Shown in pieces: positions 12,977 through 62,761 of a stretch of 64,000 nt of DNA. Under the pieces are notes generated by a model. It was given only the letters and a program-made list of their open reading frames with translations. It was not told the DNA's origin and did not search any database. The DNA comes from Rhodoferax sp. GTDB lineage: Bacteria; Pseudomonadota; Gammaproteobacteria; Burkholderiales; Burkholderiaceae_C. Made by a program: the position numbers and the translations under genes. The stretch is taken from the NCBI GenBank assembly GCA_030645355.1, contig JAUSNJ010000154.1, positions 1 through 64,000 of the forward strand, read 5' to 3'. The first letter of the stretch is position 1; every line of letters starts with the position of its first letter.

Positions 12977-15900
12977 TCAACGGCTGGTGACACTCAGTTC
13001 GGCGTGCGGCTTCCAGGGCGCATCCGCGGTGTCAGACAGGGCAGTCCTGGGGGCACCCAGAAACAAGCGCTCGGCGCCCACTTTGCGACTGGCCAGGTAG
13101 TCCTTCACGGCCACTCCGCGCTGCTGCGCCAGTGTGCGCATGGCGTCTTCGGTCACGGAAATGCTGGCCAGTAACAGTGACTCCATTTCGGCGGCGGGCA
13201 GGTCCTTGGCAAACCCCACCAGATTGCGGGGCTTGGCGATGTCGGCGCGGCGGTACACGTCCTTGAGCAGCACCGGATACTCGGCATCCGTCAACACACC
13301 CACGGCCGAGGCGTCCTGGCCGCCCACCGCTGCACGACGGCGCTTTTCGGCCAACACCAAGGCCTTGAGGCGTTCGCGCTTCAGCGCTTCGCGCTCGGCC
13401 TCCAGGTTGGCAGTTCCGACCACGGTGACGTGCAACACTGGCCGGTCTGCCAGGGCCTTGGCAATCTTGTCCAGGCCCTGTGCGACGTCTGGCGCGAGCA
13501 CGCTACTGCCCGGCGCGAAACTGACAGAACTGAGGTCTTCCCCCCCACTGCCGCCAAACGCATTGGCCAGCAAGCTGAAAGGCGCAGTCAGTGCTTTGGC
13601 AATAAGGTTGGTGATGACCTTCCACACCACCGCCCCGATGCTGAACTGCGGATCGTTCAACGAGCCGCTGACGGGCAGGTTGATATCGATCACGCCATTG
13701 CGGTCGGCCAGCAGGGCCACGGCCAGCTTGACCGGCAGGCTGTTGGGGGCGCCCTCCACCTTGTCGCCAAAGCTCAGCTGGTTGAGCACCAGCTGGTTGG
13801 TGGCGGTCAGTTGGCCATCGGGCTGCACGCTGTACCTGACGTCCATGCTCAACTTGCCGCGTTCAATGCCATAGCCGGCGTATTTGATGGAATAGGCGGT
13901 GAGGGGCGGAAGGTCCAAATCGCGCACCCGGCCCTGAATGTCCAGCGCCAGGGGCTTGGCCAGCGGATTGATCTTGCCGGTGATCTCCAGCGAGGCCGTG
14001 CCTTCGGCCCGGCCGCGCAGTTCCAGGTCAGCCAGTTGCACGCTACCGTCCAGTGCCTGCGAGGAAAACGCGCTGAGCTTGCCGTTGAGTTCGCTCAGGT
14101 CGGCCGAGAAATTGGGCCGGATAAAACGGTCCGAGAACAGCACTTTGCCGTTGACCAGGGCGATGGGGCCCATCGCGACCACGGCGGCCGGTGCAGCCTG
14201 CGCACTGGCTGCGGCCGGTGCCGATGCGGGCGCGGCAGGTGCGCCGGCCGGCGTGGCCTTCACCAGGTCTTGCAGATTGACGCGCCCGCTGGCGTTGACG
14301 ATGACGCGGGCATAGAAGTCCGACAACGTGGCCTCGCGCACCTGCGCGCGGGTGGCGCTGCCGGGTGCCATGTTCAGGCTGATGCCGGGCAGGTTGAGGG
14401 ACTTCCAGCTCAATAGTTCCTCGGCCACGCCCAGGGTTTCGGACTCGACCGGGGCACTTCCCGCCTCCCCGGCAGCAGCCGTGCCTGCGACGCTGTTGGC
14501 CCGAAAGTCTTCCAGCGACGCGTCGCCCTGCAGTTGCACCTGGGCACCGTCGGCGCCAGCGGCGTAGCGCAGTTGCCCCTTGTAGCTGGCGTCGGCGCGC
14601 AGGATGGCGATGTTGAGCTGATCGGCAAAGTACGGCGTGACACCATGCACCGGCAGGTCGATTGCCTCGACACTGCCCTGCAGCGCCAGCGGCGCCCACA
14701 TCACCGTGCCGCGGTAGTTCAGCTTTCCGGGCTCCGCGCGGCCGGACTTGAGCCGGGCCGTGAGCGTCAGCGGTGCGGGCTTGGCACCATCCAGCGTGGC
14801 GCCTTTGAGCTGCAACTGCAGGGCCGACACTTCCAGCCGCGCCGGTCGGGCAAAACTGCGGTCGTCGAGCTTGACCGCGCCATCGGCAATGGCCAACTCA
14901 CCCAGCGCCACTTGCCAGGGAGCCTGGGGTTTGGCAACAGCCTCTGCCTTCAGAGGTGCATCGTCCCCAGTGGATTGCGTGGCAGGTTGCTGTGCTGCGA
15001 GAGTCGCAGTTTTCATCCAGCGCTGAAACATCCACTGACCCTGTGCATCGCGGTGCACCGTGGCGCTGGGTGCGCGCAGTGCCAGCTTGCCCACGCTGCC
15101 GGTCCGGGCCACCAGGTCCAGCTGGGCATCGGTCACTTCCAGCAGTTTGAAACCGGGCATCTCGTTGGCGGCACGCTCGGCATTGCTGGCGGCGGCGGCC
15201 ACAGCGGCGGTCCACTCTTTGGGTCCTTTCAGCGCAAAGTCGCGCACTGCCAGGCGGGGCACCGCCACTTGCAGTGCGTCACCCTGCATGCGCAGGTCCA
15301 GCTCGGCATCCAGCACACCGGCCACACCGGGCTGCAAAAACTGCGCAACATAGGGCGCGGCCAGCCCCAGATCCAGGTCGCCAATCGACGCGTGTACGGC
15401 GGTGCTGGACTCGGCACCCTCGCCCTTGGCGCTCAGGCGTGCGGGCTTGCCCCGCACCGGCATTTCGGCCGAGGCTTCAAAGGTATAGGGCGTGGCCGTC
15501 AGGGGCCAATGCAGGGACTGCGCCTGCAACTCCACCTGCGCCAGCACCAAGCGGCCCTGGGGCTGCAGGCTGTCGTCCGTCCACGACAGGCCCCCACGGT
15601 GCACCACCAGGCGCTCCAGCGCCAGGGTCCAGGGCTTGGTTGGTGCCAAAGTCTTTGTGGATTTCTGGCCGCTAGCCCTCGTAGATGCTGATGGTATAGC
15701 TATATTTTTAGTAGCAACCCGCTCTGACCTGGATTTTTCGAAATCGAGATTGAGGTGCCCCGCACGGTTGCGTGTGGCCTGCAGTCTGGGTGCGGTGATC
15801 TCCAGCGACGCCAGATGGACGGCCTGCTCCAGCGGGCGCACGTCGGCCAGTTCGGCGGCGATGACTTCCACGCCCAATAGCGGTTGGCCCGACGCATCGG

Positions 15901-16756
15901 CCAGCGCCAGGCCCGACACCTTGACCGTGCCTTTGAGCGTGAGCTTGGACTGTGCCGCCTGCTCAAAGCCCAGACGCACGTCGGCATCCACCACGGCGCT
16001 TTGCAGGCGCACCGGCAAGCTGGCAGGCAGGTAGGGCAAATAGGGCGCCAGGTCCAGCTGCGCAATCTTGATCGTGGCATCGCCCTTGCGGGTTTGCGCA
16101 AAGGGTGCGCCCTCGGTTGCAGTGTCGAAATGGCTGCCATTGAGATCAAACGCCAGGCGGGGCTGCACCTTGACATCGCGCTTGGATTCCAGCGTGCTCA
16201 AAAACGGCACGGCCAAGTGCAGCGCGCGCAGCGTGTGGTGGCGTTCGCCGGTGGGCAGGCGGTCCATGAAATCCACAGAACCGCCGTTGATGGTGAGGTT
16301 GTACAGGGCAAAAGGCAGCGGTGCTGACGGCGCAGCAGATGCGTTGGCCTGGCTCAGCGTTTCCAGAATGTCGTCGATGTCGTAGTGGCCATCACCCAGG
16401 TGGGCCAGGTGCAGTGTGGGCGTATCCACCGTGATGGCATCCACCACGGGGGCCAGGCGCAGCACGGACTCCAGTTCAGCATCCAGGTACAGACGAACAA
16501 TGGAAAGCTGCTTGCCGCGCCCGTCGGCAGTGGCAATGGCCAGCTCGTGCACAGTGAGTTCGAGTGACCAGGGGTGAAAGTCCACCGCGCCAATGGTCAG
16601 CGTCCGGCCCAGCGCGGTACTGCCCTTCTCTTCGATCATCCGCTTGGCCATTGGTGGCACTGCCAGCCAGGCCAACAACCAGACCACCAACAGACTTCCC
16701 AGAAACCAGCGGCCACGGCGCTGCCATTGGGGGGATACGGAAAAGGGAACCTGCAT
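12977..16756 (-). CDS. Giant DUF748/AsmA-like envelope protein
   Basis: 1259 residues from ATG at 16756 (MQVPFSVSPQWQRRG); an in-frame GTG lies six bases upstream. A single membrane helix (about 13-33) anchors a long periplasmic body typical of DUF748/AsmA-like proteins, which are linked to lipid transport and outer-membrane biogenesis. Ala/Pro/Ser-rich linkers occur near residue 860. An OmpA-like segment (VSFAPGSSVLAPDVAQGLDK) is near residue 1085 before a charged helix. A copy of the dispersed repeat lies in frame around residue 350, adding the peptide KNIAIPSASTRASGQ. It is the last gene of a leftward block starting with the MFS gene. Confidence 0.88.
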   Translation of the reverse strand: MQVPFSVSPQWQRRGRWFLGSLLVVWLLAWLAVPPMAKRMIEEKGSTALGRTLTIGAVDFHPWSLELTVHELAIATADGRGKQLSIVRLYLDAELESVLRLAPVVDAITVDTPTLHLAHLGDGHYDIDDILETLSQANASAAPSAPLPFALYNLTINGGSVDFMDRLPTGERHHTLRALHLAVPFLSTLESKRDVKVQPRLAFDLNGSHFDTATEGAPFAQTRKGDATIKIAQLDLAPYLPYLPASLPVRLQSAVVDADVRLGFEQAAQSKLTLKGTVKVSGLALADASGQPLLGVEVIAAELADVRPLEQAVHLASLEITAPRLQATRNRAGHLNLDFEKSRSERVATKNIAIPSASTRASGQKSTKTLAPTKPWTLALERLVVHRGGLSWTDDSLQPQGRLVLAQVELQAQSLHWPLTATPYTFEASAEMPVRGKPARLSAKGEGAESSTAVHASIGDLDLGLAAPYVAQFLQPGVAGVLDAELDLRMQGDALQVAVPRLAVRDFALKGPKEWTAAVAAAASNAERAANEMPGFKLLEVTDAQLDLVARTGSVGKLALRAPSATVHRDAQGQWMFQRWMKTATLAAQQPATQSTGDDAPLKAEAVAKPQAPWQVALGELAIADGAVKLDDRSFARPARLEVSALQLQLKGATLDGAKPAPLTLTARLKSGRAEPGKLNYRGTVMWAPLALQGSVEAIDLPVHGVTPYFADQLNIAILRADASYKGQLRYAAGADGAQVQLQGDASLEDFRANSVAGTAAAGEAGSAPVESETLGVAEELLSWKSLNLPGISLNMAPGSATRAQVREATLSDFYARVIVNASGRVNLQDLVKATPAGAPAAPASAPAAASAQAAPAAVVAMGPIALVNGKVLFSDRFIRPNFSADLSELNGKLSAFSSQALDGSVQLADLELRGRAEGTASLEITGKINPLAKPLALDIQGRVRDLDLPPLTAYSIKYAGYGIERGKLSMDVRYSVQPDGQLTATNQLVLNQLSFGDKVEGAPNSLPVKLAVALLADRNGVIDINLPVSGSLNDPQFSIGAVVWKVITNLIAKALTAPFSLLANAFGGSGGEDLSSVSFAPGSSVLAPDVAQGLDKIAKALADRPVLHVTVVGTANLEAEREALKRERLKALVLAEKRRRAAVGGQDASAVGVLTDAEYPVLLKDVYRRADIAKPRNLVGFAKDLPAAEMESLLLASISVTEDAMRTLAQQRGVAVKDYLASRKVGAERLFLGAPRTALSDTADAPWKPHAELSVTSR
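15668..15718 (-). repeat. Dispersed repeat copy A (inside DUF748 gene, sense)
   Basis: On the minus strand: GGTTGCTACTAAAAATATAG, then CTATACCATCAGCATCTACG, then AGGGCTAGCGGCC. It shares the TGCTA...TAGC half and ACGAGGGCTAGCGGCC half with the other copies. It is a multiple of codons here and is read through without a stop. Confidence 0.8.
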
Positions 16757-16797
16757 CAACACGCTTTCAAAAATGGGGGCAGTCTGGCTGGCCGATT

Positions 16798-29383: not shown

Positions 29384-29635
29384 CTAACCGCCGGTGACGG
29401 GCGGAAAGAAGGCCACTTCAGCGCCTTCTGTTAATAGCGTGGTCTCGTCGCTCAGTGTCTGGTTGAGCGCGACCCGCACGGCCTTGCCGCGGGCCAGTGC
29501 ATCTGCATAGACTCCGCCTTGGGCGATCAGTTCATCCCGCAGGGCCGCCACGGTGGCGGCCGTGGTGTCTACGGCTTCGCTGCCCTTGCCCAAGAGCTCA
29601 CGGATGGACGCAAAGTATTTGACGTGAATTTTCAT
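29384..29635 (-). CDS. moaD: Molybdopterin synthase sulfur carrier subunit
   Basis: 83 residues, ubiquitin-like, ending with the required Gly-Gly (FFPPVTGG) that becomes a thiocarboxylate. Its start overlaps the moeA stop by four bases (ATGA), so the two are translationally coupled. Partner of MoaE. Confidence 0.96.
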   Translation of the reverse strand: MKIHVKYFASIRELLGKGSEAVDTTAATVAALRDELIAQGGVYADALARGKAVRVALNQTLSDETTLLTEGAEVAFFPPVTGG

Positions 29636-30885
29636 GCCAGCAGTTCCGCAAAAGACACATAGCGAACCATGTCACCGGGCACGATGTCACGCCCGGACGG
29701 GTTGTCGACCAGACCCTCGCCCCATACGGCCGAGGTCAGCACGCCCGCACTCTGATTGGGGAACAGGTCAAGGCCCCCGTTCACATTGCGCCGCACGCGC
29801 AGAAACTCGCGACGTTTGTCGGGCTTGGCCCAGGCGAAATCGGCACGTACAGCTTCAGTATTCATCGCAACGTCGTGCATGCCCTGCAGGTGCAGCAGAA
29901 AAGGCCGCACCAAAACCAAAAAGGTCACAAAACTGGACACTGGGTTACCGGGTAGACCCAAAAAGTGCGCGTCGGCAATGCGCCCATATGCAAAGGGCTT
30001 GCCCGGCTTGATGGCGATCTGCCACAGGTCCAGTGTGCCCAGCGTTTGCACGGCGGGTTTGATGTGGTCTTCTTCGCCCTCCGTCACGCCGCCACTGGTC
30101 AGAATGACGTCGTGCGACTGCGCCGCAGCGCGCAAAGCATCGATCGTGGCTGCGCGCTGGTCGGGGACGATGCCCAGGTCGCTGACGACACAGCCCATGC
30201 GACGCAACAGGGCGCTCAAAAAGTAGCGGTTGGAGTTGTAGATGGCACCGGGCAGCATGTCCTGCGGGGCCACTGCCCCTGGCATGACCAACTCGTCGCC
30301 GGTTGAAAACAGCGCAACGCGGGGGCGCCTGACCACGGACAGCTGGGCCATACCGATGCTGGCAGCCAGTCCCAATTCGGCGGGGCCCAGGCGTTGACCA
30401 CGGACCAGCACCACATCGCCCCGGGCCACATCTTCACCGGCACGGCGGATGTTTTGTCCTGCCTGGGGTTGGGTGTTGACCCGGACGCTGGGTAGCCCGT
30501 TCTGGTCTGCATCGTATGGCAAGGCGGTGCAGTCTTCTTGCATGACTACTGCGTCCGCACCAGCCGGCACCGGGGCGCCGGTAAAAATGCGTGCGGCTGT
30601 TCCGGCCAGAAGAACGTCTCCACTCGCACCGGCTGCGATGCGCTGCGAGACCGGGAGCAAGGTACCGGCGGCGGCCACGTCGTCACATCGCAGCGCGTAA
30701 CCATCCATGGAGCTGTTGTCGTGCGGTGGCACGTGGAGCGCAGACACCACGTCTGCGGCCAGCACGCGGCCATCGGCATCACCGACCGGTACCGACTGGG
30801 TGTCGGGCAGCGCACTGGCACAGGCCAGCAATCGTGCCAGCGCGTCATCCAATGGCAACAGGGGGGGACGCGTAGGAGCGGTCAT
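29632..30885 (-). CDS. moeA: Molybdopterin molybdenumtransferase
   Basis: 417 residues. Inserts molybdate into MPT-AMP. Domain order: MoeA N domain (DNSSMDGYALRCDD, about 56-70), molybdopterin-binding MPT domain with SVVRRPRVALFSTGDELV and TSGGVTEGEEDH, and C-terminal domain. It is preceded by a repeat copy in the 73-bp gap after thrC; it may be cotranscribed with hom-thrC. Confidence 0.96.
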   Translation of the reverse strand: MTAPTRPPLLPLDDALARLLACASALPDTQSVPVGDADGRVLAADVVSALHVPPHDNSSMDGYALRCDDVAAAGTLLPVSQRIAAGASGDVLLAGTAARIFTGAPVPAGADAVVMQEDCTALPYDADQNGLPSVRVNTQPQAGQNIRRAGEDVARGDVVLVRGQRLGPAELGLAASIGMAQLSVVRRPRVALFSTGDELVMPGAVAPQDMLPGAIYNSNRYFLSALLRRMGCVVSDLGIVPDQRAATIDALRAAAQSHDVILTSGGVTEGEEDHIKPAVQTLGTLDLWQIAIKPGKPFAYGRIADAHFLGLPGNPVSSFVTFLVLVRPFLLHLQGMHDVAMNTEAVRADFAWAKPDKRREFLRVRRNVNGGLDLFPNQSAGVLTSAVWGEGLVDNPSGRDIVPGDMVRYVSFAELLA

Positions 30886-30897: not shown

Positions 30898-30955
30898 GGT
30901 TGCTATAACAATGATAGCTGCCTACGCATATTTCACGAGGGCTAGCGACCTATTT
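30898..30955 (+). repeat. Dispersed repeat copy B (thrC-moeA gap)
   Basis: GGTTGCTATAACAATGATAG, then CTGCCTACGCATATTTCACG, then AGGGCTAGCGACC. Fills almost all of the gap between thrC and moeA, up to the thrC stop. It shares both halves with copies A and C. Confidence 0.8.
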
Positions 30956-30958
30956 CGT

Positions 30959-32404
30959 TTAAGACTTCTGGCACTCGGCGGCAATCAGCGCCTTGATGGC
31001 ATCCACATCGGCATCCATGACCTGCACGCGTTTGGGTAGGTCTTCGATGCCGACAAACTTGGCCGGCCGGTCGGGCTCGCGGCCCAGGGCTTCATAAACG
31101 GTCTCGGCAAATTTGATCGGCAAGGCGGTTTCCAGCACCAGCATGGGCACGCCGGGCTTGCGCTTCTCCAGCGCCACTTTGACGCCGTCGGCGGTGTGGG
31201 TGTCGATCATCACACCGTGGCGCGTCCAGCAGTCGCGAATCGTGGCCAGGCGGTCGGCGTGGGTGCTTTTGCCGCTGATGAAACCGTAGCGCTCGGCGCA
31301 GTGCACAAAGGCCGGATCACGGCTCAGGTCAAAGCGCCCGGCCTTGGCCAGTTGCGCGCCAAACAGGTCTGCCGTGCGCGCACCATCGCGGCCCAACAGG
31401 TCGAACACAAAGCGCTCGAAGTTGGACGCCTTGGAAATGTCCATGGACGGGCTGGAGGTCTCGTGTGTATCGGCACTGCCGCGCACGCGGTAGACACCGG
31501 TACGGAAAAACTCGTCCAGCACGTCGTTTTCGTTGGTGGCGACCACCAGCTGTTCAATCGGCAGGCCCATCATGCGCGCCACGTGGCCGGCGCAGACATT
31601 GCCGAAGTTGCCGCTGGGCACGGTGAACGACACCTTCTGCGAGTTCGTTTCAGTGGCCTGGATATAGCCGGCGAAGTAATACACCACCTGGGCCAACAAG
31701 CGTGCCCAGTTGATGGAATTGACCGTGCCAATCTTGTACTTGCGTTTGAAGTCCAGGTCGTTGGACACGGCTTTGACCATGTCCTGGCAGTCATCAAACA
31801 CGCCCTTGACGGCGATGTTGTAGATGTTGGCGTCCATCAGGCTGAACATCTGGGCCTGCTGGAAGGCGCTCATGCGCCCGAACGGGCTGGTCATGAAGAC
31901 ACGCACGCCTTTCTTGCCGCGCATCGCGTATTCGGCCGCGCTGCCGGTGTCGCCACTGGTGGCGCCCAGGATGTTCAGCTCTTCGCCGCGGCGCGCCAGT
32001 TCATATTCGAACAGATTGCCCAGCAACTGCATGGCCATGTCCTTGAAGGCCAGCGTGGGGCCGTTGGACAGGGCTTCCAGCCACAGACCGTCTTCCAGAT
32101 GGCGCAAGGGCACGATCTCGCCGGTGCCAAACACCTCGGCGGTGTAGGTCTTGTCACAAATGGCACGCAGGTCGGCCGCGGGAATGTCGTCGATGTACAG
32201 CGACAGAATCTCAAACGCCAGCGCCGCATAGCCTTGTGTGTGGTAGACCGTGCGCCACTGGCTGAGCGTGGCATCGCTGACCTGGGGATAGTGCTCGGGC
32301 AGGTACAGGCCGCCGTCGGGCGCCAGGCCTTCAAGCAGGATTTCACAGAAACGCTTGCGCTCAGGCGCAGCGGAACCAGAGGCGCGGGTACTGAGGTATT
32401 TCAT
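30959..32404 (-). CDS. thrC: Threonine synthase
   Basis: 481 residues, the long fungal/proteobacterial form. PLP Lys in NGPTLAFKDMAMQLLGN (about 115), phosphate-binding SGDTGSAAEYAM-like loop (GATSGDTGSA), and SGNFGNVCAG. Converts O-phosphohomoserine to threonine. Its ATG overlaps the hom stop (TGATG), indicating tight coupling. Confidence 0.97.
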   Translation of the reverse strand: MKYLSTRASGSAAPERKRFCEILLEGLAPDGGLYLPEHYPQVSDATLSQWRTVYHTQGYAALAFEILSLYIDDIPAADLRAICDKTYTAEVFGTGEIVPLRHLEDGLWLEALSNGPTLAFKDMAMQLLGNLFEYELARRGEELNILGATSGDTGSAAEYAMRGKKGVRVFMTSPFGRMSAFQQAQMFSLMDANIYNIAVKGVFDDCQDMVKAVSNDLDFKRKYKIGTVNSINWARLLAQVVYYFAGYIQATETNSQKVSFTVPSGNFGNVCAGHVARMMGLPIEQLVVATNENDVLDEFFRTGVYRVRGSADTHETSSPSMDISKASNFERFVFDLLGRDGARTADLFGAQLAKAGRFDLSRDPAFVHCAERYGFISGKSTHADRLATIRDCWTRHGVMIDTHTADGVKVALEKRKPGVPMLVLETALPIKFAETVYEALGREPDRPAKFVGIEDLPKRVQVMDADVDAIKALIAAECQKS

Positions 32405-33750
32405 CAGGCGAGTTCTTCTTTGCGTATGCGCACAATGGACTGCAGCACGGTAGGCAGTGCCTGCATCTGGGCCAGTGCGGCGTTCATCTTGGCCTCCTGG
32501 CAGTCGTGCGTCAAGATGATCAGGTCGGTCTGCGGTACGGTGGCGGAACCGCCCTCGCCGCTCACTTCATCGGCCTCACGCTGCAAGACCGCGTCGATGC
32601 TGATATTGGCTTCGGCCAGGATGCCGGTCACCTTGGCCAGCACGCCGGCCTGGTCAGCCACCCGCAGGCGCAGGTAGTAGCTGGTCACCACGTCGCCCAT
32701 GGGCAGCACGGGCAGCGAGTCCATGGCCTTGTCAAAGGTGTTGGGCTGGAAGGCCAAGTGCGGCACGCGGTTGGCCGCGTCCACGGTGTGCAGGCGGGTG
32801 ATGTCGACCAGGTCGGCAATCACGGCGCTGGCGGTGGGCTCGGAGCCAGCGCCCTTGCCGTAGTACAACGTATTGCCCACCGCGTCGCCATTGACGACGA
32901 CGGCGTTCATGGCGCCTTCCACATTGGCAATCAGGCGCTTGGATGGGACCAGGCTGGGGTGCACGCGCAGCTCGACGCCCTTGGCCGTGCGCTTCGTGAT
33001 CCCCAACAGCTTGATGCGGTAGCCCAACTGTTCTGCGTATTTGATGTCGGTCGCGCCGAGCTTGGTAATGCCCTCCACATAGGCCTTGTCAAACTGCACG
33101 GGAATGCCAAACGCGATAGCCGACATCAGTGTGACCTTGTGCGCGGCGTCCACGCCTTCGATGTCGAAGGTCGGGTCGGCTTCGGCATAGCCCAGGCGTT
33201 GCGCTTCCTTCAGGACCACGGCAAAGTCCAGACCCTTGTCGCGCATCTCGGAGAGGATGAAGTTGGTCGTTCCGTTGATGATGCCGGCAATCCACTGGAT
33301 CCGGTTGGCGGTCAGGCCCTCACGCAAGGCCTTGATGATGGGAATGCCGCCAGCCACCGCCGCCTCGAACGCCACCATCACACCCTTGGCAGACGCTGCG
33401 GCAAAGATTTCGGTGCCGTGCACGGCCAGCAAGGCCTTGTTGGCGGTGACCACATGCTTGCCGGCCGCAATGGCTTCCAGCACCAGCTGCTTGGCAATGC
33501 CATAGCCGCCAATCAATTCAATGACGATGTCGATCTCGGGGTTGGCGATGATGGCACGGGCGTCATTCACCACCTGCACGCCGTCACCCACGATGGACTG
33601 GGCCCGCGCCACGTCCAGATCGGCCACCATGGTGATGGCAATGCCGCGGCCGGCGCGGCGCTGGATTTCTTCCTGGTTGCGCTTGAGCACATTGAAAGTA
33701 CCTGCACCCACGACGCCAATGCCCATCAATCCAACTTGTATCGGTTTCAT
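32404..33750 (-). CDS. hom: Homoserine dehydrogenase
   Basis: 448 residues. NAD-binding GLMGIGVVGAGTFN at the N-terminus, catalytic domain with GIINGTTNFILSEM and the DPTFDIEGVDAAHK stretch, and a C-terminal ACT domain (about 365-445) expected to mediate threonine feedback. Followed directly by thrC. Monofunctional, with no aspartokinase domain. Confidence 0.97.
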   Translation of the reverse strand: MKPIQVGLMGIGVVGAGTFNVLKRNQEEIQRRAGRGIAITMVADLDVARAQSIVGDGVQVVNDARAIIANPEIDIVIELIGGYGIAKQLVLEAIAAGKHVVTANKALLAVHGTEIFAAASAKGVMVAFEAAVAGGIPIIKALREGLTANRIQWIAGIINGTTNFILSEMRDKGLDFAVVLKEAQRLGYAEADPTFDIEGVDAAHKVTLMSAIAFGIPVQFDKAYVEGITKLGATDIKYAEQLGYRIKLLGITKRTAKGVELRVHPSLVPSKRLIANVEGAMNAVVVNGDAVGNTLYYGKGAGSEPTASAVIADLVDITRLHTVDAANRVPHLAFQPNTFDKAMDSLPVLPMGDVVTSYYLRLRVADQAGVLAKVTGILAEANISIDAVLQREADEVSGEGGSATVPQTDLIILTHDCQEAKMNAALAQMQALPTVLQSIVRIRKEELA

Positions 33751-33767
33751 AAAATCTCTGAGTAAAT

Positions 33768-33826
33768 GAGGGCTCTAGCCCTCGTAAATCATGCGCGGGC
33801 AGCTACCAATTTCATAGCAGACGGTG
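33768..33826 (-). repeat. Dispersed repeat copy C (alaA 3' end)
   Basis: Minus strand: GTCTGCTATGAAATTGGTAG, then CTGCCCGCGCATGATTTACG, then AGGGCTAGAGCCCTC. Its right end is the hairpin GAGGGCT-CT-AGCCCTC (33768-33783). It supplies the last codons and the TGA stop of alaA. Confidence 0.8.
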
Positions 33827-35075
33827 GCGTCTGGGCTGTTTGGACGTTGTGCGTTCCGTGGCTCTTGCGGTAACCTTCAAGGAACTTGGCGATGCGGCTG
33901 ATGGCTTCGCGCAAATCATCCTCATGCGGCAGGAATACGATACGGAAATGGTCAGGCTGCTGCCAGTTGAAGCCGGTGCCCTGGACCAGCATGACGCGGG
34001 TCGCCTTGAGCAGCTCCAGGAAGAACTGCCGGTCATCCGCAATCGGATAGACCTTGGGGTCCAGCTTGGGGAACATGTACAGCGCCGCCTGCGGTTTGAC
34101 ACAGCTCACACCCGGGATGGCCGTGATCAGCTCATAGGCCAGATCGCGCTGGCGGCGCAGGCGTCCGCCTTCGCAGACCAGGTCGTTGATGCTCTGGTAG
34201 CCGCCCAATGCAGTCTGGATGGCCCACTGACCGGGCACGTTGGAGCACAGCTTCATGTTGGAGAGCATGTTCAGGCCCTCGATGTAGTCCGCAGCCGACT
34301 TCTTGTCACCCGACACCACCATCCAGCCCGCGCGGTAGCCGCAGGAACGGTAGCTCTTGGACAGCGAGTTGAAGGTCAGCGTCAACACGTCGGTCGACAG
34401 CGAGGCCAGTGCCGTGTGCTTGACTCCGTCGTACAGGACCTTGTCATACACCTCGTCGGCCAGGATCACCAAGCCGTGTTCGCGGGCGATTTCGACAATG
34501 CTTTTGAGCAAGGCATCGGAATACAGCACGCCCGTGGGGTTATTGGGGTTGATGACCACAATGCCCTTGGTACGCGGCGTGATCTTGGCGCGGATGTCGT
34601 CCAGATCGGGCATCCAGCCATTCGCCTCGTCGCATAGGTAGTGCACCGGTGTGCCGCCGGAAAGGCTGGTGGACGCAGTCCACAGCGGGTAGTCGGGCAT
34701 GGGCAGCAGCAGCTCGTCGCCATTGTCCAGTAGTGCATTGGTGGCCATGGTAATCAGCTCGCTGGCACCATTGCCCAGGTAGATGTCGTCCAGCGTGACG
34801 CCGGCAATACCCTGCTTCTGGGTTTCGTGCATCACCGCCTTGCGCGCGGCGAAGATGCCCTTGCTGTCCGAATAGCCGGCCGAGTTGGGCAGGTTGCGGA
34901 TCATGTCCTGCTGGATTTCTTCAGGCGCATCAAAGCCGAAAACCGCGAGGTTGCCGAGGTTCAGCTTGATGATCTTCTGGCCCTCGTCCTCCATTTGCCG
35001 GGCCGCATCCATGATGGGGCCGCGAATGTCATAGAGCACGTTTGCCAGCTTGGCAGATTTTTGAATGGTTCTCAA
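33789..35075 (-). CDS. alaA: Alanine aminotransferase, AlaA type
   Basis: 428 residues using a TTG start at 35075 (LRTIQKSAKLANVLYDIRGP), which has GGAGG five bases upstream and aligns with the start of E. coli AlaA; the earlier in-frame start at 35138 has no such support. Class I PLP fold: NPNNPTG, ADEVYDKVLYD, SLSKSYRSCGYRAGW with the PLP Lys, FRIVFLPHEDDL. Interconverts pyruvate/glutamate and alanine. The C-terminus is about 20 residues longer than E. coli AlaA, and its final residues, SAMKLVAARA, come from a repeat copy. Confidence 0.93.
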   Translation of the reverse strand: MRTIQKSAKLANVLYDIRGPIMDAARQMEDEGQKIIKLNLGNLAVFGFDAPEEIQQDMIRNLPNSAGYSDSKGIFAARKAVMHETQKQGIAGVTLDDIYLGNGASELITMATNALLDNGDELLLPMPDYPLWTASTSLSGGTPVHYLCDEANGWMPDLDDIRAKITPRTKGIVVINPNNPTGVLYSDALLKSIVEIAREHGLVILADEVYDKVLYDGVKHTALASLSTDVLTLTFNSLSKSYRSCGYRAGWMVVSGDKKSAADYIEGLNMLSNMKLCSNVPGQWAIQTALGGYQSINDLVCEGGRLRRQRDLAYELITAIPGVSCVKPQAALYMFPKLDPKVYPIADDRQFFLELLKATRVMLVQGTGFNWQQPDHFRIVFLPHEDDLREAISRIAKFLEGYRKSHGTHNVQTAQTPPSAMKLVAARA

Positions 35076-35178
35076 AGTCCCTCCGGAAGTCAGGATCACA
35101 GGGCGAAACCTATAATTTGACCACAGTTCCGCGCCCAATTAGTGCGGTGCAGCATTCAAATTTCACCCGGGCACCTCT

Positions 35179-38036: not shown

Positions 38037-38088
38037 AATGCTATACGTTTAGTAGCAACCTACGCAGTAGATACGAGGGCTAGAGGCC
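38037..38088 (+). repeat. Dispersed repeat copy D (after phoH)
   Basis: AATGCTATACGTTTAGTAGC, then AACCTACGCAGTAGATACGA, then GGGCTAGAGGCC. It begins three bases after the phoH stop. Its right half is part of a terminator. Confidence 0.8.
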
Positions 38089-38109
38089 AATTGGGCTTCT
38101 AGCCTTTTT
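38078..38109 (+). terminator. Intrinsic terminator of phoH built from repeat copy D
   Basis: GGCTAGA (38078-38084) pairs with TCTAGCC (38098-38104); GCC/GGC adds inner pairs around AATT, and TTTTT follows (38105-38109). The left arm is the conserved GAGGGCTAG block of the repeat. Confidence 0.7.
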
Positions 38110-38120: not shown

Positions 38121-38232
38121 CAGCTGAGCATCAGGGCTGGGGTGCGTGGCAAAGCGAAGTCAAGGAGGAGACCCAGGGCAAAGCCATGGGTCGGGGGACA
38201 TGAGCGGCGCCACGCACCCCAGTCCTGCTGCG
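38121..38232. other. Nested long inverted repeat between phoH and dnaB
   Basis: CTGGGGTGCGTGGC (38137-38150) is perfectly complementary to GCCACGCACCCCAG (38209-38222). Outer CAGG/CCTG and GCAG/CTGC extend the stem. The 58-base loop holds a second dyad, GACCCA/TGGGTC. It lies between the convergent phoH and dnaB genes, after the phoH terminator. There is no T-run, so it is not a simple terminator. The element is unidentified; a structured RNA or repeat unit is possible. Confidence 0.55.
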
Positions 38233-38256
38233 GCCAGGTAGACCTGCAACTTGACT

Positions 38257-39660
38257 TTAGTAGTCCCCGCCCCCACCCGATGCCAAGCTCTCGAACTTGG
38301 TAATGTTCTTCAGGAAGGCCAGCTTGACGGTCCCCGTAGGGCCGTTACGCTGCTTGGCGATGATGACTTCTGCCACACCCGGCTCCTTGCAGGCGTCCTT
38401 GGTGTAGTACTCGTCACGGTAGATGAACATGATGATGTCGGCATCCTGCTCGATGGCGCCCGACTCGCGCAAATCGCTCATCATGGGCCGTTTGTCAGGG
38501 CGTTGCTCCACGCTGCGGTTGAGCTGCGACAGCGCGATCACCGGGCATTTCAACTCTCGGGCCAGCATTTTCAAACCCCGGGAGATCTCTCCCAGCTCGG
38601 TAGCCCGGTTCTCGCCATCACTGCTGCTGCCACTCATCAGCTGCAAATAGTCGACCACGATCAGGCCCAGCTGACCACACTGCCGTGACAGACGCCGTGC
38701 ATTGGCGCGCAGTTCGCTGGAGGTCAGGCCTGCGCTCTCGTCGATGTGCAGCGAGATGGTGCGCAGCTTTTCGATGGCTTCCGACAGGCGCGGCCATTCG
38801 TCATCGGTCAGTTTGCCGGTGCGCAAATGCCCCTGGTCAATACGGCCAATCGAACCCACGATACGCACCGCCAGTTGTGCAGCACCCATTTCCATCGAGA
38901 ACACCGCAACCGGCAAGCCTTCATTCAGGGCCACGTGTTCGGCAATGTTGATGGCCAGCGCTGTTTTTCCCATGGAAGGACGGGCAGCCAGCACGATCAG
39001 GTCGCCGGCCTGAAGACCCGCGGTCATGCGGTCCAGGTCGTAGAAGCCCGTGGGCACACCGGTCACGTCGTTGGGGTTATCGGCCATCTCCTGCACACGG
39101 TCCAGCAGCTTGACCACCAGCGAATCCATGGCCTGGAAGCCCTGGTTGTTGCGCTTGCCCTGTTCGCCGATATTGAAGATCTTCTGCTCCGACTCGTCCA
39201 CAATGTCGGCCACCGGACGGCCCTTGGGGTTGAACGCATTGGTGGCAATTTCGTCGCTGGCGCTGACCAGTTTGCGCAGCAGGGAGCGGTCCCGCACGAT
39301 TTCGGCATAGCGGCGGATATTGCTGGCACTGGGCACGTACTGCGCCAGTGAGTTCAAATAGGCCAGGCCACCGATCTCTTCGGCCCGACCCTGGTTTTGC
39401 ATGTGCTCGAACACGGTGATCACGTCCGCCGGCTTGCTGGCGTTGACCAGCGCGCCGATGGCGGCATAGATCAGGCGATGTTCATAACGATAAAAATCGC
39501 CATCCATCAGGATGTCACCGACGCGGTCCCAGGCCGCGTTGTCCAGCAGCAAGCCGCCCAGCACGCTGGATTCGCCCTCAATGGAATGCGGCGGCACACG
39601 CAACTGTGCAATCTGGCGGTCTTGGCCGTATTCGTCTACGGGAGAAAGGACGGTGGACAT
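38257..39660 (-). CDS. dnaB: Replicative DNA helicase
   Basis: 467 residues. N-terminal DnaB domain (about 25-125; PPHSIEGESSVLGGLLLDN), linker, then RecA-like helicase with Walker A ARPSMGKTALAINIAEH (about 220) and VDYLQLMSG Walker B. No intein. Hexameric 5'-3' helicase at the replication fork. It follows the rpsF-priB-rpsR-rplI operon, the usual betaproteobacterial order, but a terminator separates them. Confidence 0.97.
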   Translation of the reverse strand: MSTVLSPVDEYGQDRQIAQLRVPPHSIEGESSVLGGLLLDNAAWDRVGDILMDGDFYRYEHRLIYAAIGALVNASKPADVITVFEHMQNQGRAEEIGGLAYLNSLAQYVPSASNIRRYAEIVRDRSLLRKLVSASDEIATNAFNPKGRPVADIVDESEQKIFNIGEQGKRNNQGFQAMDSLVVKLLDRVQEMADNPNDVTGVPTGFYDLDRMTAGLQAGDLIVLAARPSMGKTALAINIAEHVALNEGLPVAVFSMEMGAAQLAVRIVGSIGRIDQGHLRTGKLTDDEWPRLSEAIEKLRTISLHIDESAGLTSSELRANARRLSRQCGQLGLIVVDYLQLMSGSSSDGENRATELGEISRGLKMLARELKCPVIALSQLNRSVEQRPDKRPMMSDLRESGAIEQDADIIMFIYRDEYYTKDACKEPGVAEVIIAKQRNGPTGTVKLAFLKNITKFESLASGGGGDY

Positions 39661-49221: not shown

Positions 49222-49277
49222 AACGCTATGTATTTTATAGCTACATAGTCATATTTCACGAGGGCTACAGGCTTGTT
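49222..49277 (+). repeat. Dispersed repeat copy E (3' of DUF2325 gene)
   Basis: ACGCTATGTATTTTATAGCT, then ACATAGTCATATTTCACGAG, then GGCTACAGGCTTG. It abuts the DUF2325 stop codon on the opposite strand. Confidence 0.75.
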
Positions 49278-50519
49278 TTACTCACAACTCTCTGGTGAAA
49301 TGCCGGCATGTCCCGTTGCCAGTACCGTCGCATCCTGCTTGAGGACCTGCTCCAGCCCGCGCACCAGCGATGAGGTGCTGGGGTTTTCCACAAACACACA
49401 GCGCTTGCCGGTGCGTTTGCAGAAGTCCTTGACCTTCCAATAGGCGTTGTGGCTGATGCAGCCGGTCTGGCAGATCACCAGGTCGGCGGCGGACAGGCTG
49501 GCGTCGAGCACGCTGTGGCTGTCTTCCAACCCGCCATCGTGGTGGGCAAAGCGCCCACCCACCCGTTCTACCACGTCGCGGTAGCTGGCCACATTGCCGC
49601 TGCGCCCGCCGACACACAGCACCACCTTCTGGTTCAGAACCACCGAGACCGGCACCGCCCACGGCTCGCGCTGTTTACCACTGTCTGCCCGCGTCGGGGC
49701 CGCCTGCCCGGTTTCCAGCAATTTGGTTGCGGCGGCAAGCTGCTGGCGCAGCGCCGCGTTCTGCCCTTCCAGTTCGACCTGGCGCTGGGCCATCTGCTCG
49801 ACTTTTTTCTGCTGGCGCACAAGGTTGTCCATGCCCGGTATCGAGGCCTTCAGGGCTACCAAATCCTCCCGCGCCATGGCGGCCGCGCTGTCCTTGGCCA
49901 GGCCATCGGCGCGAACCCGCACCAGTTGCGCCTGGAGTTGGGCCATGTCTGCCGACTTTTGCGCCAGCAGGCGGGTGCTGCGCTCCTGCACCCGGCCGAG
50001 TTCGCGGGCCAGCACCGCGTTTTCACCCAGCACGGCGTGGAAACGTGCCAGGTCCACCTGCACCCGTGCTCCGGCCTGGTGCTGCAGCATGTGCATGTCG
50101 CGGCACACGCGGCCCTGCAGCTCGGTGTCGCAACGCGGGTGTGTCAGCGTCGCCCACAGGGCGCCGGCCACGTCACCGCGGTGCACGGCTTGCGTCCAAC
50201 TTCCCGCCAGGGCCTGCGTCGTCTTGGCGCTGCGCGCCTGCTGCACTTCTCGGCTGTAGCGGGTGTCGAGTTCATCCTGCAGCAGCTCTGAGAGCCGATT
50301 GCGGTGCATGCATTCGGCCACAGCGCCCACATGCACGTCGTAGTCATCGGCCACCGCCTTGCCGCGCAGGGCCTTGCCGACGAGGCGGCGCAGGGTATCC
50401 AGCGGCAGGCAGACGCCCACCACGGGGCAGTGGCATTGGTGGTCCAGTTCCCAGATCCGGCGCCGCCGGGAGCCAGATGGCGGTTTTGCAGTCAGCAAGG
50501 CATTCGCGTGTTCACACAT
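49278..50519 (-). CDS. DUF2325 domain protein with coiled coil
   Basis: 413 residues. N-terminal Cys/His-containing part (MCEHANALL, HQCHCPVVGVC), a long Gln/Ala/Leu/Arg coiled-coil section (about 150-285) and a C-terminal DUF2325 domain (VVLCVGGRSGNVASYRDVVE, LVICQTGCISHNAYWKVKDF). Function unknown. It follows hemP and DUF1513 genes on the same strand, suggesting an iron/haem-linked role. AAGGAAA precedes the ATG. Confidence 0.88.
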   Translation of the reverse strand: MCEHANALLTAKPPSGSRRRRIWELDHQCHCPVVGVCLPLDTLRRLVGKALRGKAVADDYDVHVGAVAECMHRNRLSELLQDELDTRYSREVQQARSAKTTQALAGSWTQAVHRGDVAGALWATLTHPRCDTELQGRVCRDMHMLQHQAGARVQVDLARFHAVLGENAVLARELGRVQERSTRLLAQKSADMAQLQAQLVRVRADGLAKDSAAAMAREDLVALKASIPGMDNLVRQQKKVEQMAQRQVELEGQNAALRQQLAAATKLLETGQAAPTRADSGKQREPWAVPVSVVLNQKVVLCVGGRSGNVASYRDVVERVGGRFAHHDGGLEDSHSVLDASLSAADLVICQTGCISHNAYWKVKDFCKRTGKRCVFVENPSTSSLVRGLEQVLKQDATVLATGHAGISPESCE

Positions 50520-52145: not shown

Positions 52146-54446
52146 ATGACCCAGCAGCACTTCAAGACAAATAAACCTCCAGCCCTCGTCAATATTGATT
52201 CATCTGCTACACATTCAATAGCAAAGCCGGGCAGGCACCTGCCGCTGGGCGCGCTGCTGCTGATGGGCTCGCTCAGTGCCATGGCCCAAACCGCCAACCC
52301 GGGCGCAGAAAAAACCCTCAAACCCGTCGTCATCAAAGAGCGGTTCGAGGCCGCAGAAGGCAAAGACGCCGTGCGCGCCACCACCAGCGGCATCGGCAAA
52401 GGCAACCAGGCGCTGCGCGACATTCCCCAGTCCATCACCGTCGTCACCGAAAAACTGGTGGACGACCGCAACCTGGACACCCTGAAAGACGTGCTGCACA
52501 ACACGGCCGGCGTGACCTTTCAGGCCGCCGAGGGCGGCGAGGAAGACATCCGCCTGCGCGGGTTTTCACTGGCAACCAGCGGCGACATTTTTGTGGATGG
52601 CCTGCGCGACCCGGCCTTCTACGACCGCGACACCTTCAACAACGACCGCATCGAACTGCTACGCGGCTCAGCCTCCATGCTGTTTGGCCGTGGCTCCACC
52701 GGCGGCGCAGTCAACCAGGTGTCCAAAGCGCCGCGCACCATTGACCAGCACGAAATCTCCACCACGCTGGGCCAGTACAACTACCGGCGCATCACCGGGG
52801 ACTTCAACGTCAAAACCGGAGACGATGCCGCCCTGCGCATCAACGCCATGGTGACCAAGGCCGACAACAATGCCGCAGGCAGCAGCATCGACAAAAAGGG
52901 CGTCGCCGGTGCCTACCGGTTTGGCATTGGCACGGCCGACGAGTTCTCAATCGGCCTGTACACGCTGCAAAACAACAATGGCATGAACTACGGGCTGCCG
53001 TGGACCAAGCCGACCGCGGCGTCGCCCACATCGGACACCACGGTCAACGACAAGATGGACCCCAGTGCCTTTTACGGCATGGCCAGCGACTACAACAATG
53101 GCACCGCCAAATATCTGACGGCCAGCCACCTGCACCGCTTCCAGGACGACAGCGAGATCAAGACCGTGGTCCGCAAAGGCGCCTACACCCGCGACCAGCG
53201 TGCCGGCACCGTGCGCTACTGCCAGAAGACAACCAACGCCACCACCGGTGTGGTGACCAATCCGCAGTGCCCCGCCACCGCCGTGGCACTGGACACGTAC
53301 GGCCCCAGCACCATTCTGAACCGCGGCAACAACGCCAAGATTCAGGACCTGGACGGCCTCTACGCCCAGAGCGACTACAGCCAAAAGATGACAGCCTGGG
53401 GCGTCAAGCACGAAATTCTGGCGGGGCTGGACTTTGCCCGCGAGTCCAAGAACGTCTACGCAGCATCCGCCGTCACCAAGCCCAAAACGCTGGCCGGCAC
53501 GCCATTTGACGGCGCTTCCATCGACGAGAGCGCCCGCACGGTGCTGCGCACCAGCGCTTTCCAGGCGCAAAACCTGGGCGCCTATGCCCAGGACATGGTG
53601 CATGTTGCCCCCAAATGGAAGGTACTGGGCGGCCTGCGTTACGACAGCATGCGTGGTGACTTCAACACCATCACCGCCACCGGTGCCGTTGGTTCGTCGT
53701 ATGCACAAACGATTGGCGACTGGAGCGAGCGCGTCGGCGTGCTGTACCAGCCCAGTGACCTGAGCTCGTACCACTTCTCGTGGGGCACGTCCTTCAACAC
53801 CTCGGCCGACACCTACTCCTACAGCGCCCTGAGCGCCAACACACCGCCCGAGCAAAGCCGCAACATCGAACTCGGTGCCAAGCTGGACACGGCCGACAAG
53901 CGCTTCACCACCCGCCTGGCCCTCTTCCAGTCCACCAAGTACAACGAACGCAACACCGACCCGGATTCCGCCGCCACCGCCTTCCTGCTGTCCGGAAAAC
54001 GCCACAGCAGCGGTCTGGAGATCGACATCACCGGCCACCTCAGCCCCAAGTGGGAAGTCTTTGGCTCCTACATGTGGATGCCGGATGCGGCCATTGACAT
54101 CGCATCGCCAACCGCCGGTGCCGGTGACCGGGCGGGTGAGCGCCCTGCCCTGACGCCCATCCACAGCGGCACGGTGTGGACCACTTACCAGCTCAACACG
54201 CAATGGCGCGTGGGCGCCGGTGTCAACTTCCGCTCGGAACAGGCGGCCAACCGCAACCCTGGCTGGATGGCACCCGCCTTTGCCACGGTGGACCTGATGA
54301 GTGAATACACCTTCAGCGAGCAGGTCACGCTCAAAGGCAACATCAGCAACATAGCCAACGTGGTCTACGCCGACTCGTTGTACACCGGGCACTACATCCC
54401 AGGTGCGGGCCGCAACGCGCAGTTGACACTGAGCCTGAAGTTCTAG
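52146..54446 (+). CDS. TonB-dependent siderophore receptor
   Basis: 766 residues. Signal peptide includes [16 protein letters not shown] TonB-box candidate (KPVVIKE) precedes the plug ([49 protein letters not shown]) and a 22-strand barrel ending in a C-terminal Phe (LTLSLKF). It resembles catecholate receptors of the Fiu/BfrA type, as expected beside a PiuC dioxygenase, but the ligand is not known. TGCTA...TAGCA at 52205-52223 looks like one half of the dispersed repeat. Confidence 0.92.
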
Positions 54447-58435: not shown

Positions 58436-58458
58436 AAAAGGCCCATTTCGGGCCTTTT
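58436..58458 (+). terminator. Intrinsic terminator after BI-1 gene
   Basis: AAAAGGCCC (58436-58444) pairs with GGGCCTTTT (58450-58458), five-base loop ATTTC. Confidence 0.9.
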
Positions 58459-58535
58459 CTGCGTTCAATCCGAGCGATGATCATTCAATCCACGACCACC
58501 TTGGCCGATATACAAACCACTCCACACCACGACCC

Positions 58536-58931: not shown

Positions 58932-58964
58932 ACAAGCCGCAACGCTTGTCGCTACGCGCAGTCT

Positions 58965-60431
58965 CTAGTCCTGCAGGTCAAACACCGCCATGCTTTCCAC
59001 GTGCGCCGTGTGCGGAAACATGTTGACCACACCCGCCGACGAACACCTGTAGCCCCCCTGCTGCACCAGCACGCCCGCATCGCGTGCCAACGTGGCCGGA
59101 TTACAGCTGACGTACACGATGCGCTTGGGTGCGTTCCAGCTCTTCTCCGAATCGGAGGCCGTGCCGTCAGCCACCCGCTGGCGGATAGCAGCCAGGGCCT
59201 GCACCAGCGCAAACGCACCCTCGCGCGGCGGGTCTACCAGCCACTTGTCGGCGGCACCATCGCCGACCAGCATCTCCGGTGTCATCCCGAAGAGGTCACG
59301 CGCTACGAATTTTGTAGCACATAGAGCACGTTTTCCGAGGGCTGCAGCCTGATTGAGCTTGAGGTTTTCGCGGGAACGCTCGACCAGGGACTCGGCACCC
59401 TCCACGCCCAGCACTTCGCGGGCCTGCGTGGCCAGCGGCAGCGTAAAGTTGCCCAGCCCGCAGAACCAGTCAATCACCCGCTCGTGCGGAGCCACCGCCA
59501 GCAGGCCCAGGGCACGCGACACCAGCACCCGGTTGATATGGGGATTCACCTGCGTGAAATCGGTGGGACGAAACGGCATGGTGATGCCAAAGTCGGGCAA
59601 GGAATAGGCCAGTTGCACCGTCTCGTGACCGGGCACTTCATCCAGGCGATGCACCGTCTCCAGCCCCTTGGGTTGCAGCCACCACTGCACGCCCGGGTGG
59701 GCCACGGCAAACCCGCGCAAACGGTTCAGGTCAGCGTCGCCCAACGGCGTCAGGTGGCGCAGTACCAGGGCCGTCACATTCCGGGCACAGCCCTCCATGT
59801 CGCCCACCGCCAGTTCGATCTGTGGGCAGGCCTCGACCGCGTCCATGGCGCCGATCAGTTCCCGCAGTGGCATCAGCATGGCGCTGACGTGGGGTGCCAG
59901 CACGCGGCACTCTTTCATATCGGCCACGTAACGGCTTTTGCGTTCGTGAAATCCCACCAGCACGGCACCCTTCTTGCGCACATGCTTGACCGACAGGCGC
60001 GCCCGGTAGCGATAACCCCAGGCCGGGCCTTCGATGGCGCGCAGGATGTTGTCGGGCTTGACCTTGCTGATGTGCCACAGGTTGTCCTCCAGCACCCGCT
60101 GCTTGACGGCCACCTGCGCACCGACATGCAGGTGCTGCATCTTGCAGCCGCCACAGGCGCCTTCGTGCAGGCCAAAGTGCGGGCACTCGGGGCGCACACG
60201 CTGCGAGGATTCGGTATGGATCTCGGTCAGCGTGCCTTTCTCGAAACTGTTCTTGGAGCGGTGTATCTGCGCGCTGACCACCTCGAAGGGCAACGCGCCG
60301 TCAATAAAGACCACCTTGCCATCGGGTTTGTGGGCCACGCCCTGGGCTTCGAGGTCCAGGGATTTCACTTTGAGCCAGCCCTCGGGCAGCGGTTTTTCAG
60401 TGGGAGATTGGGTTGGGTTCACGTCTGTCAT
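58965..60431 (-). CDS. rlmD: 23S rRNA (uracil-5-)-methyltransferase RlmD
   Basis: 488 residues, slightly long. TRAM domain N-terminal; Fe-S Cys cluster [23 protein letters not shown] site [16 protein letters not shown]; catalytic VDPPREGA and [15 protein letters not shown]. Methylates U1939 of 23S rRNA. A repeat copy lies in frame at about residue 370 ([19 protein letters not shown]), between the SAM motif and the catalytic Cys, which explains the extra length. Confidence 0.93.
59299..59350 (+). repeat. Dispersed repeat copy F (inside rlmD, antisense)
   Basis: CGCGCTACGAATTTTGTAGC, then ACATAGAGCACGTTTTCCGA, then GGGCTGCAGCC. More diverged in the second half than copies A-D. Read through without a stop in rlmD on the minus strand. 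Confidence 0.65.
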
Positions 60432-60512
60432 GCCTGAATTGTCTCAGGTTGGTGGTGGGGACCAAAGATCCGCGTACCATGCGGTTTTCAAAGCAGCATC
60501 AGGAGAGCAACG

Positions 60513-61205: not shown

Positions 61206-61209
61206 GGCG

Positions 61210-61686: not shown

Positions 61687-61723
61687 TCAGGACTCCTGAT
61701 TCACGCGCATTGGGGGTCGACGC

Positions 61724-62761
61724 TCACATCACCGACTGGCGCGTGATGCCCCGGCGGTTGAGGTAGCGTTTGAGCTTGACCAGGGCTTCGTTTTGCACCT
61801 GGCGCACGCGCTCCCGGGTCAGGCCCAAGCGCACGCTCAGCGTGTCCAGGGTCTCGGGGTCGTGGTCATGCAGGCCAAAACGCCCTTCCAGCACCTCCCG
61901 CTCGCGTGGGGACAGCGTGCCAATCCACTCTTCCAGCAACAGGTCGACCTCGTGGGCCAACGTGACGTCTTCCGGGGCCAGCGTCAGCTCGTCCACCAGC
62001 CCGTCCCCCAGGGTCTGGTCGTCGCCGGTGCGGTCCAGCGAGGCATCCAGTGATCGTGGCGCCTCGGCCATGGACAGTAAATCGGCCACGTGGTGAGGCT
62101 CGCTACCCAGCAGTGCAGCAATATCCTCGACGCGAATCCCCTCGGGCCGCTTGGCAACCAGCTCGGAATCGTTCTCCAGCAGCCGGCGCGCCCGCAGCAC
62201 ATGCTGCAGTTCCCGTACCACGTTGACCGGCAGGCGCACGGCGCGGCCTTGGTACATCAACGCCCGGTCCACCGACTGGCGAATCCACCAGGTGGCGTAG
62301 GTCGAGAAGCGGAAACCCCGCTCGGGTTCAAACTTGTCGATGGCGTGCATCAGGCCCAAATTTCCCTCTTCCACCAGGTCGGCCATGGGAACGCCGCGCC
62401 CCATATAGCCCTTGGCAATGCTGACCACCAGGCGCAGGTTGTGCTCGATCATGCTCTGGCGAGCGGCAAAATCACCGGCACGGGCCCGCGTGGCGGTCTC
62501 AAATTCCTGTTGCGGGGTAAACAGCTCGGTTCGGCGCACACTGCGCAGGTAGAGCGATAGCGCGTCGACCGACTCGTCGGTCACGGCGTCATCCGCGGCG
62601 AGTTCGCGCGCGAGCAACTCGACAGCCTGCAATGCTATTGAATCAGGAGCAACATCCTCAGCATCCTCGAGGGCTGGAGGGCTAATTGGCTCTGGGTGAT
62701 GGCCCGCAAGCCCCGGGTCTGCGGCGCTGCTGCCCAAACCACTGTTGCGGGGTTTTTTCAT
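61724..62761 (-). CDS. rpoS: RNA polymerase sigma factor RpoS
   Basis: 345 residues. Regions 1.2-2.4 ([40 protein letters not shown]), 3 and 4 ([40 protein letters not shown]). Stationary-phase and general stress sigma factor. The N-terminal variable part contains a repeat copy that reads [20 protein letters not shown]. It follows nlpD by 11 bp, the classical pcm-nlpD-rpoS order. Confidence 0.97.
62630..62690 (+). repeat. Dispersed repeat copy G (inside rpoS, antisense)
   Basis: CAATGCTATTGAATCAGGAG, then CAACATCCTCAGCATCCTCG, then AGGGCTGGAGGGCTAATTGG. The first half is diverged but the CGAGGGCTGGAGG block is clear. In frame in rpoS, N-terminal of region 1.2. Confidence 0.65.

Follow-up and report, generated by a model that had tools for sequence, protein, structure and literature searches.

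A dispersed bipartite motif of about 60 bp in a Rhodoferax genome: layout, dialects, and a possible role as a genome-wide DNA signal

The window, that is, the whole 64-kb stretch of Rhodoferax DNA analysed here, contains a short sequence that recurs both at gene boundaries and inside reading frames. We asked what kind of element this is, how its copies arose, and what might hold them in place.

Layout of the element and its copies in and around genes

Seven copies had been proposed in the first-pass annotation, and each was found at its reported place. A search with a profile built from 70 genomic copies added an eighth at 52157–52224 (-), which had been missed. The annotation had counted three copies between genes and four in frames; in our analysis, four copies lie at gene boundaries and, with the added copy, four in frames, giving eight in total. 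In the window, the element is 57–67 bp long and reads GCTAY-N8-RTAGC, about 16 looser bases, and CACGAGGGCTAGNGGCC-NATTT. The motif covers 67 columns and carries about 61 bits, with 43–45% GC. The column profile, whose core columns are inflated because its copies were picked by the core, showed an essentially ungapped layout. The left edge was sharp, at the A/T-rich bases preceding TGCTAY, and was followed by eight A/T-rich, weakly kept bases, RTAGC, and about 16 looser bases around GCATATT. The right half consisted of CACGAGGGCTAGNGGCCNATTT and a weak tail. An R-TAG was present beside an imperfect palindrome, and no terminal inverted repeat was evident in the profile. Allowing up to three mismatches, ACGAGGGCTAGNGGCC gave nine matches in the window, seven of them profile-supported copies and two not; shuffled windows gave a mean of 2.47, and none of 100 shuffles reached nine. 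The copy at 59301 was the weakest and was detected by the profile only.

Among the boundary copies (30899, 33751, 38037, and 49222), the one at 30899..30972 (+, profile E 4.4e-16) lies between thrC (30959–32404, -) and a moeA-like gene (29632–30885, -), both named by gene family, and overlaps the 3′ end of thrC. The copy at 33751..33819 (-, E 8.2e-14) is located just upstream of the homoserine dehydrogenase gene (32404–33750, -) and provides the last codons of the preceding ORF 33789–35138, which we take to be alaT-like. The convergent phoH-like (36339–38033, +) and dnaB (38257–39660, -) genes are separated by the copy at 38037..38108 (+, E 1.9e-14), and the copy at 49222..49298 (+, E 9.2e-16) lies at the 3′ end of ORF 49278–50519 (-). 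The phoH–dnaB spacer also holds another dispersed repeat, about 107 bp long (GGGCTGGGGTGCGTGGCAAAGCGAAGTCAAGGAGGAG...), at 38127–38233, for which a DNA search lists more copies in G000 (the genome under study), G003, G015, G022, G034, and others. A further hairpin repeat, GGGTCAGACCACTCGC...GTGCTCTGACCCC, fills this spacer at loci L346, L347, L350, L362, and L368, with and without the element.

The in-frame copies (15645, 52157, 59301, and 62631) lie in ORF 12977–16762 (-) at 15645..15718 (-, E 1.2e-12), in the N-terminal part of the ORF for a TonB-dependent siderophore receptor (52146–54446, +) at 52157..52224 (-, E 1.3e-6), inside rlmD (58965–60431, -, named by family) at 59301..59367 (+, E 2.5e-4), and in the N-terminal linker of rpoS (61724–62761, -) at 62631..62698 (+, E 9.7e-7). 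The automatic in-frame test flagged the first and the third of these, whereas the rpoS copy was placed by alignment and the receptor copy by eye. The rlmD segment is of nearly constant length among relatives.

Across G000, 20 of 88 copies (about a quarter) lay in frame inside ORFs by the strict test, in a collection biased to strong copies because core matches guided the choice of 68 of the fetched and window loci. The rpoS and TonB receptor copies add two to this number. The host genes include metH, dapF, trmB, thiL, and an error-prone DNA polymerase gene, as well as ComEC-type, N-acetylmuramoyl-alanine amidase, LysE-type, and UvrD-like genes. A 489-aa host protein, presumably ImuB-like, gave no Pfam match at E 1e-10. 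In the relative G221, 20 of 53 classified copies (about a third) were intragenic, 11 on the strand of the gene and 9 on the opposite one, and convergent junctions carried 10 copies versus 2 at divergent ones. In-frame copies encode about 19 residues, for example AINMEAAYAISTRARGLFG in the forward and PNWPLALVEYAQGATSLIA in the reverse orientation. Conservation applies to the motif as DNA, which is read in both orientations and in several frames. Annotators may wish to note that some 19 residues of many proteins in these organisms derive from the motif. Third-position conservation across the whole motif was modest (0.67 vs 0.61 and 0.66 vs 0.58); synonymous conservation over the whole motif was rejected as a signal, the same level being attained by 82 of 423 and 29 of 219 control windows.

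Abundance, shared sites, and spacing

In G000 (4.45 Mb, 88% complete), 305 matches to the core were obtained at up to two mismatches, compared with 12 for the reversed pattern. Therefore, the earlier expectation of hundreds of genomic copies stands, and the two-part, very abundant repeat family is genuine. The genome belongs to the Comamonadaceae; among named organisms, a window gene had its best relatives in Rhodoferax-like and other members of this family. In G221, 54 copies were found in 440 kb versus none in the reversed control, a density of about one per 8 kb, the same as in the window. We searched the ACGAGGGCTAG core in 61 genomes of the genus. The richest were G003 (424 matches), G000 (305), G022 (301), and G012 (190), followed by G015 (132), G033 (93), and G031 (64); G034, G026, G001, G030, and G020 had 35–51, and most other genomes were near or below their own control. 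A generalised profile, iterated on the same 80 named Comamonadaceae loci that it scored, found 93 full-length copies in 29 of them and none in the reversed control. Nineteen of the 93 fall on a conserved coding stretch of moeA type and were set aside. This stretch, IAxRADFxWPKADKRREFLRV, resembles the element in the forward frame (e.g., L076 14567 and L144 19781) and may be an ancient protein-fixed copy or else a chance similarity. A family-wide pattern search was rejected as too strict and mostly noise, as it matched 44 of 150 genomes and gave none in G000. Our search of the open-access literature, with subscription journals and preprints outside its scope, found no description of the repeat.

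To compare sites between G000 and G221, we used the 88 copies of the former. A flank of 25 was present in the sampled G221 DNA, 12 had both flanks, and 11 were comparable; the 13 one-flank copies and the phoH copy, which has overlapping flanks, were left out. All 11 sites were occupied in both genomes. Thirteen conserved columns of our choosing were identical at 139 of 143 positions (97%), while the remaining motif columns agreed at 257 of 385 (67%), and the flanks were 73–90% identical where aligned. ACG is followed by A in 83 of 88 G000 copies, and in 24 of the 29 not picked via the core pattern, but by G in 88 of 97 G221 copies. At shared sites with A in G000, eight of nine have G in G221, each genome following its own spelling; the exception, the second site in the ImuB-like gene, keeps A. 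This shift at shared sites is therefore not explicable by new insertions. Gene conversion also fits poorly, as it would be expected to carry the variable columns along.

The tracking of dialects by genomes is imperfect. The GGGGG spelling occurs at two sites in G022 and at one each in G003 and G033, despite the GAGGG-core-rich nature of these genomes. Among the 80 named loci, a copy upstream of hom was present in 15 and a copy downstream of thrC in 20. Each of these two old sites leans towards the spelling of its own genome: similarity to the other copies of that genome prevailed over unrelated copies in 28 of 30 cases. Own-genome similarity exceeded orthologue similarity in only 21 of 30, and this comparison was rejected as evidence.

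The copies in the 440 kb of G221 are evenly spaced. The coefficient of variation was 0.69 for the 54 copies, compared with 0.97 for random placement (P 0.003) and 0.96 in a gene-aware null (P 0.0039). The closest pair was 1,069 bp apart, and no pair fell below 1 kb versus 5.3 expected (P 0.0018). Even spacing is weaker in G000, where the 88 copies include seven neighbour pairs below 1 kb, one of them an inverted pair 149 bp apart; around the 60 fetched copies, seven neighbours lay within 1 kb versus 14.6 expected at one per 8.1 kb. No tandem arrays of the element were seen in the 440 kb of G221 or among the 88 copies. Judged by the GC skew of 20 sampled pieces, 46 of 64 strong G221 copies lie on the lagging strand, which is no more than suggestive of a strand polarity. 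An unbiased sample did not confirm the bias (27 of 49); the combined figure is 58 of 97 (P 0.067).

Stems, inserted copies, and the transposase

Covarying stems had been anticipated for the element. The arms turned out to be fixed in sequence, and the covariation analysis supported no helix in GCTAY/RTAGC or in two more candidate stems, in the own-genome, G221, or family set; a few single pairs reached P 0.015–0.05. Fixed arms without covariation point to recognition as double-stranded DNA more than to a hairpin, and the GCTAY/RTAGC dyad would fit a protein dimer on double-stranded DNA. In several relatives, the phoH–dnaB spacer copy forms a bidirectional terminator. This would agree with a cis-acting element at the RNA level, for instance a terminator at the ends of genes, a reading that we regard as very improbable in view of the intragenic copies in both orientations, the stems that do not covary, and the lack of an Rfam match in the window at the gathering threshold. 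We take the terminator copies as a local reuse of the element.

Protein comparisons revealed extra length at several in-frame copies. MetH carries a clean 19-residue insertion relative to the best of 21 solved homologues, in the single alignment shown, and at the motif DapF, TrmB, and ThiL exceed solved homologues by about 11 residues. Some copies thus came in as inserted DNA. The RpoS segment is absent by alignment from G006, G014, G018, and G032, whose core matches do not exceed the control, and the second ImuB-like segment is absent from the same four genomes and from G218. Among 30 genomes compared, the phoH–dnaB spacer occurs with and without the element. No target duplications were resolved at the compared sites, namely the upstream site of the homoserine dehydrogenase gene and the phoH–dnaB spacer.

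Other sites showed no such gain. At the first ImuB-like site, the motif was recognised by eye in 20 of 30 genomes and absent in 10, and protein length is the same in 26 of 30, with no clear gain in length where the motif is present. The exceptions are G219 and G035 (two residues shorter), G214 (eight longer), and G012, which bears the motif (five longer). Bearers typically have the codons GCT ACA TCT TTA ATA GC, and the non-bearer G008 has GCC ACC TCG CTG CTG GCG. All 20 bearers use ATA or GTA at one codon, where the remaining 10 genomes use CTG, TTG, or GTG. Across 11 window ORFs, ATA accounts for 2.8% of the Ile codons and GTA for 3.5% of the Val codons. A similar picture was obtained for the spacer between a Y1_Tnp gene and its neighbour, which we take to be gltB. 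With the motif, 13 loci had a median of 58 nt (range 53–67); 24 low-scoring loci had a median of 52.5 nt (range 9–67), some retaining a partial GCTAT-N8 arm. Of the 54 Y1 loci, 16 lacked a readable spacer and one had an intermediate score; these were left out of the count. The inserted segments and the equal-length sites point to two kinds of copy, some having entered as DNA and others apparently sitting on native sequence without length change. The latter may have been gained or lost by point changes, or may descend from an older shared insertion.

An origin by a REP-type transposase (TnpA-REP) had been proposed for checking and was not supported. No Y1_Tnp gene was found in the 88% complete G000. 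Such a gene is present in 54 of the 61 genomes of the genus, and a 246-aa Y1 protein was matched in 189 of 200 family genomes. Around 30 Y1 loci, 10 element matches in 108 kb were not clearly enriched over a background of 88 in 1,394 kb, the latter being loci on which the profile was partly built. Most of the ten represent one old orthologous site behind the gene, beside gltB, and the Y1/RAYT-type gene itself is bounded by a different repeat, GGGGTCAGATTCCAATT. Elements had at first seemed to flank Y1 genes, but this weakened on inspection of the flanks, and the Y1 transposase is a doubtful driver. In the 189 family genomes, the Y1/RAYT-type gene often adjoins the gltB-like gene and has its own repeat, AATTGGGGTCAGATTCCAATT and TTGATATGTCCC; the Y1–gltB loci of relatives are L221, L227, L228, L233–L253, and L314–L343.

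Candidate readings of the motif

According to two papers (PMC3630211, PMC2397512), the DUS/USS uptake signals of Neisseriaceae and Pasteurellaceae are characterised by dialects, abundance, conserved sites, genic copies, and spacing linked to recombination. Similarly, the present element has at least hundreds of copies with dialects by species, and it lies in permissive parts of the core genome, genes included. Over-representation (305 vs 12, and 54 vs 0 in 440 kb of G221), a change of spelling at shared sites (8 of 9 A to G in G221, 28 of 30 in the family test, with exceptions), a motif more conserved than its surroundings, and even spacing in G221, weaker in G000, were all found. Since these are published DUS traits, we tentatively favour an uptake-type signal. 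The element may be a genome-wide DNA signal that molecular drive or selection maintains, most likely serving DNA uptake or recombination, a reading to which we give somewhat less than an even chance. The motif would then be a long recognition sequence read by something in the cell, and selection or biased gene transfer would hold it at fixed genome places, in contrast to copies that are defunct or still moving. As a working model, transformation comes closest. Fragments with a good match would be preferentially taken up or recombined, so that matches accumulate and survive at any position where the surrounding sequence can accommodate them, within genes as well, and the spelling of a species would follow its receptor. 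Both the putative reader and its part in uptake or recombination are deduced from the sequence patterns. The uptake reading is weakened by the length of the element, 57–67 bp and about 61 bits compared with a DUS/USS word of 10–12 bp or a core of about 9–12 bp, as well as by the density of about one per 8 kb, the copies born by insertion, the imperfect dialect tracking, and the close pairs in G000.

The element could also be mobile, an old, family-wide repeat of REP-like or other non-autonomous type that a RAYT or another enzyme copied into the ends of genes and into in-frame positions where it was tolerated, with the old copies diverging later. A REP survey (PMC3733652) places GTAG/CGTC-tagged elements mainly between tandem or convergent genes, with some in frame in DNA-repair genes, and its main text names none of Rhodoferax, Polaromonas, Acidovorax, and Delftia. 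The present copies are likewise dispersed, prefer convergent over divergent junctions, occur in error-prone polymerase, UvrD-like helicase, and ComEC genes, and have an R-TAG adjoining an imperfect palindrome; the MetH insertion, the RpoS and second ImuB-like segments, the variable phoH–dnaB spacer, and the Y1/RAYT gene in most genomes of the genus agree with mobility. However, REPs are stem-loops of 20–40 bp with a GTAG or CGTC end and frequent dimers or clusters, whereas the present unit is longer and fixed in layout, has no covarying stem, and is rarely paired. Near-identical pairs, as recent MITE copies would form, were absent; the highest identity was 0.82 in 2,415 pairs of 70 G000 copies and 0.79 in 4,656 pairs of 97 G221 copies. 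The 11 common sites with one base changed in concert, the different repeat bounding the Y1 gene without enrichment of the element, and the motif sites without length gain also oppose this explanation, and we consider it doubtful. If it were true, old copies would have changed in concert, which likewise needs explanation. The motif might also bind a protein that organises the chromosome or processes DNA and would need regular genome sites for segregation, repair, or nucleoid structure, but this appears unlikely. The even spacing, the fixed dyad without covariation, the occurrence in genes in both orientations, and the lagging-strand excess of the strong G221 copies are consistent with it, but the excess was not confirmed in the unbiased sample, and core matches at or below the control in some genomes of the genus, other spellings being uncounted, are unexpected for a general need.

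Returning to the uptake-type signal, we consider it possible, though with reserve, that the Comamonadaceae contain a new class of species-specific genome-wide signal, a bipartite motif of about 60 bp at roughly one per 8 kb, partly built on native coding sequence, the spelling of which shifts in concert as its reader changes. Such a signal could be a species barrier to gene exchange. The described uptake signals with dialects, those of Neisseriaceae and Pasteurellaceae, use words of roughly ten letters. In a large environmental family, a dialect motif of 60 letters would imply that selection or drive can hold much longer sequences, even through coding parts of the error-prone polymerase, metH, and rpoS genes, and would offer a handle on which freshwater bacteria exchange DNA.

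Rickettsia palindromic elements are repeats read in frame in many unrelated proteins. The present element resembles them in its in-frame copies in unrelated genes (20 of 88, and the 19-residue MetH insertion); it differs in having no supported palindromic fold and a host of a different bacterial class. Those elements are cited in PMC3733652. BRE, as described in PMC3110155, occurs in Bordetella and other Betaproteobacteria, including Polaromonas and Rhodoferax, is about 90 bp long with 69% GC in Bordetella, and has at most 29 copies, often tandem and some inside genes. Both are dispersed in Betaproteobacteria and partly genic; the present element is set apart from BRE by description, having 67 columns, lower GC, and hundreds of copies that are not tandem. 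A search of viral contigs with the G000 dialect gave no matches, and a palindromic dialect of the element had an exact match in one viral contig (L394, 1269–1305).
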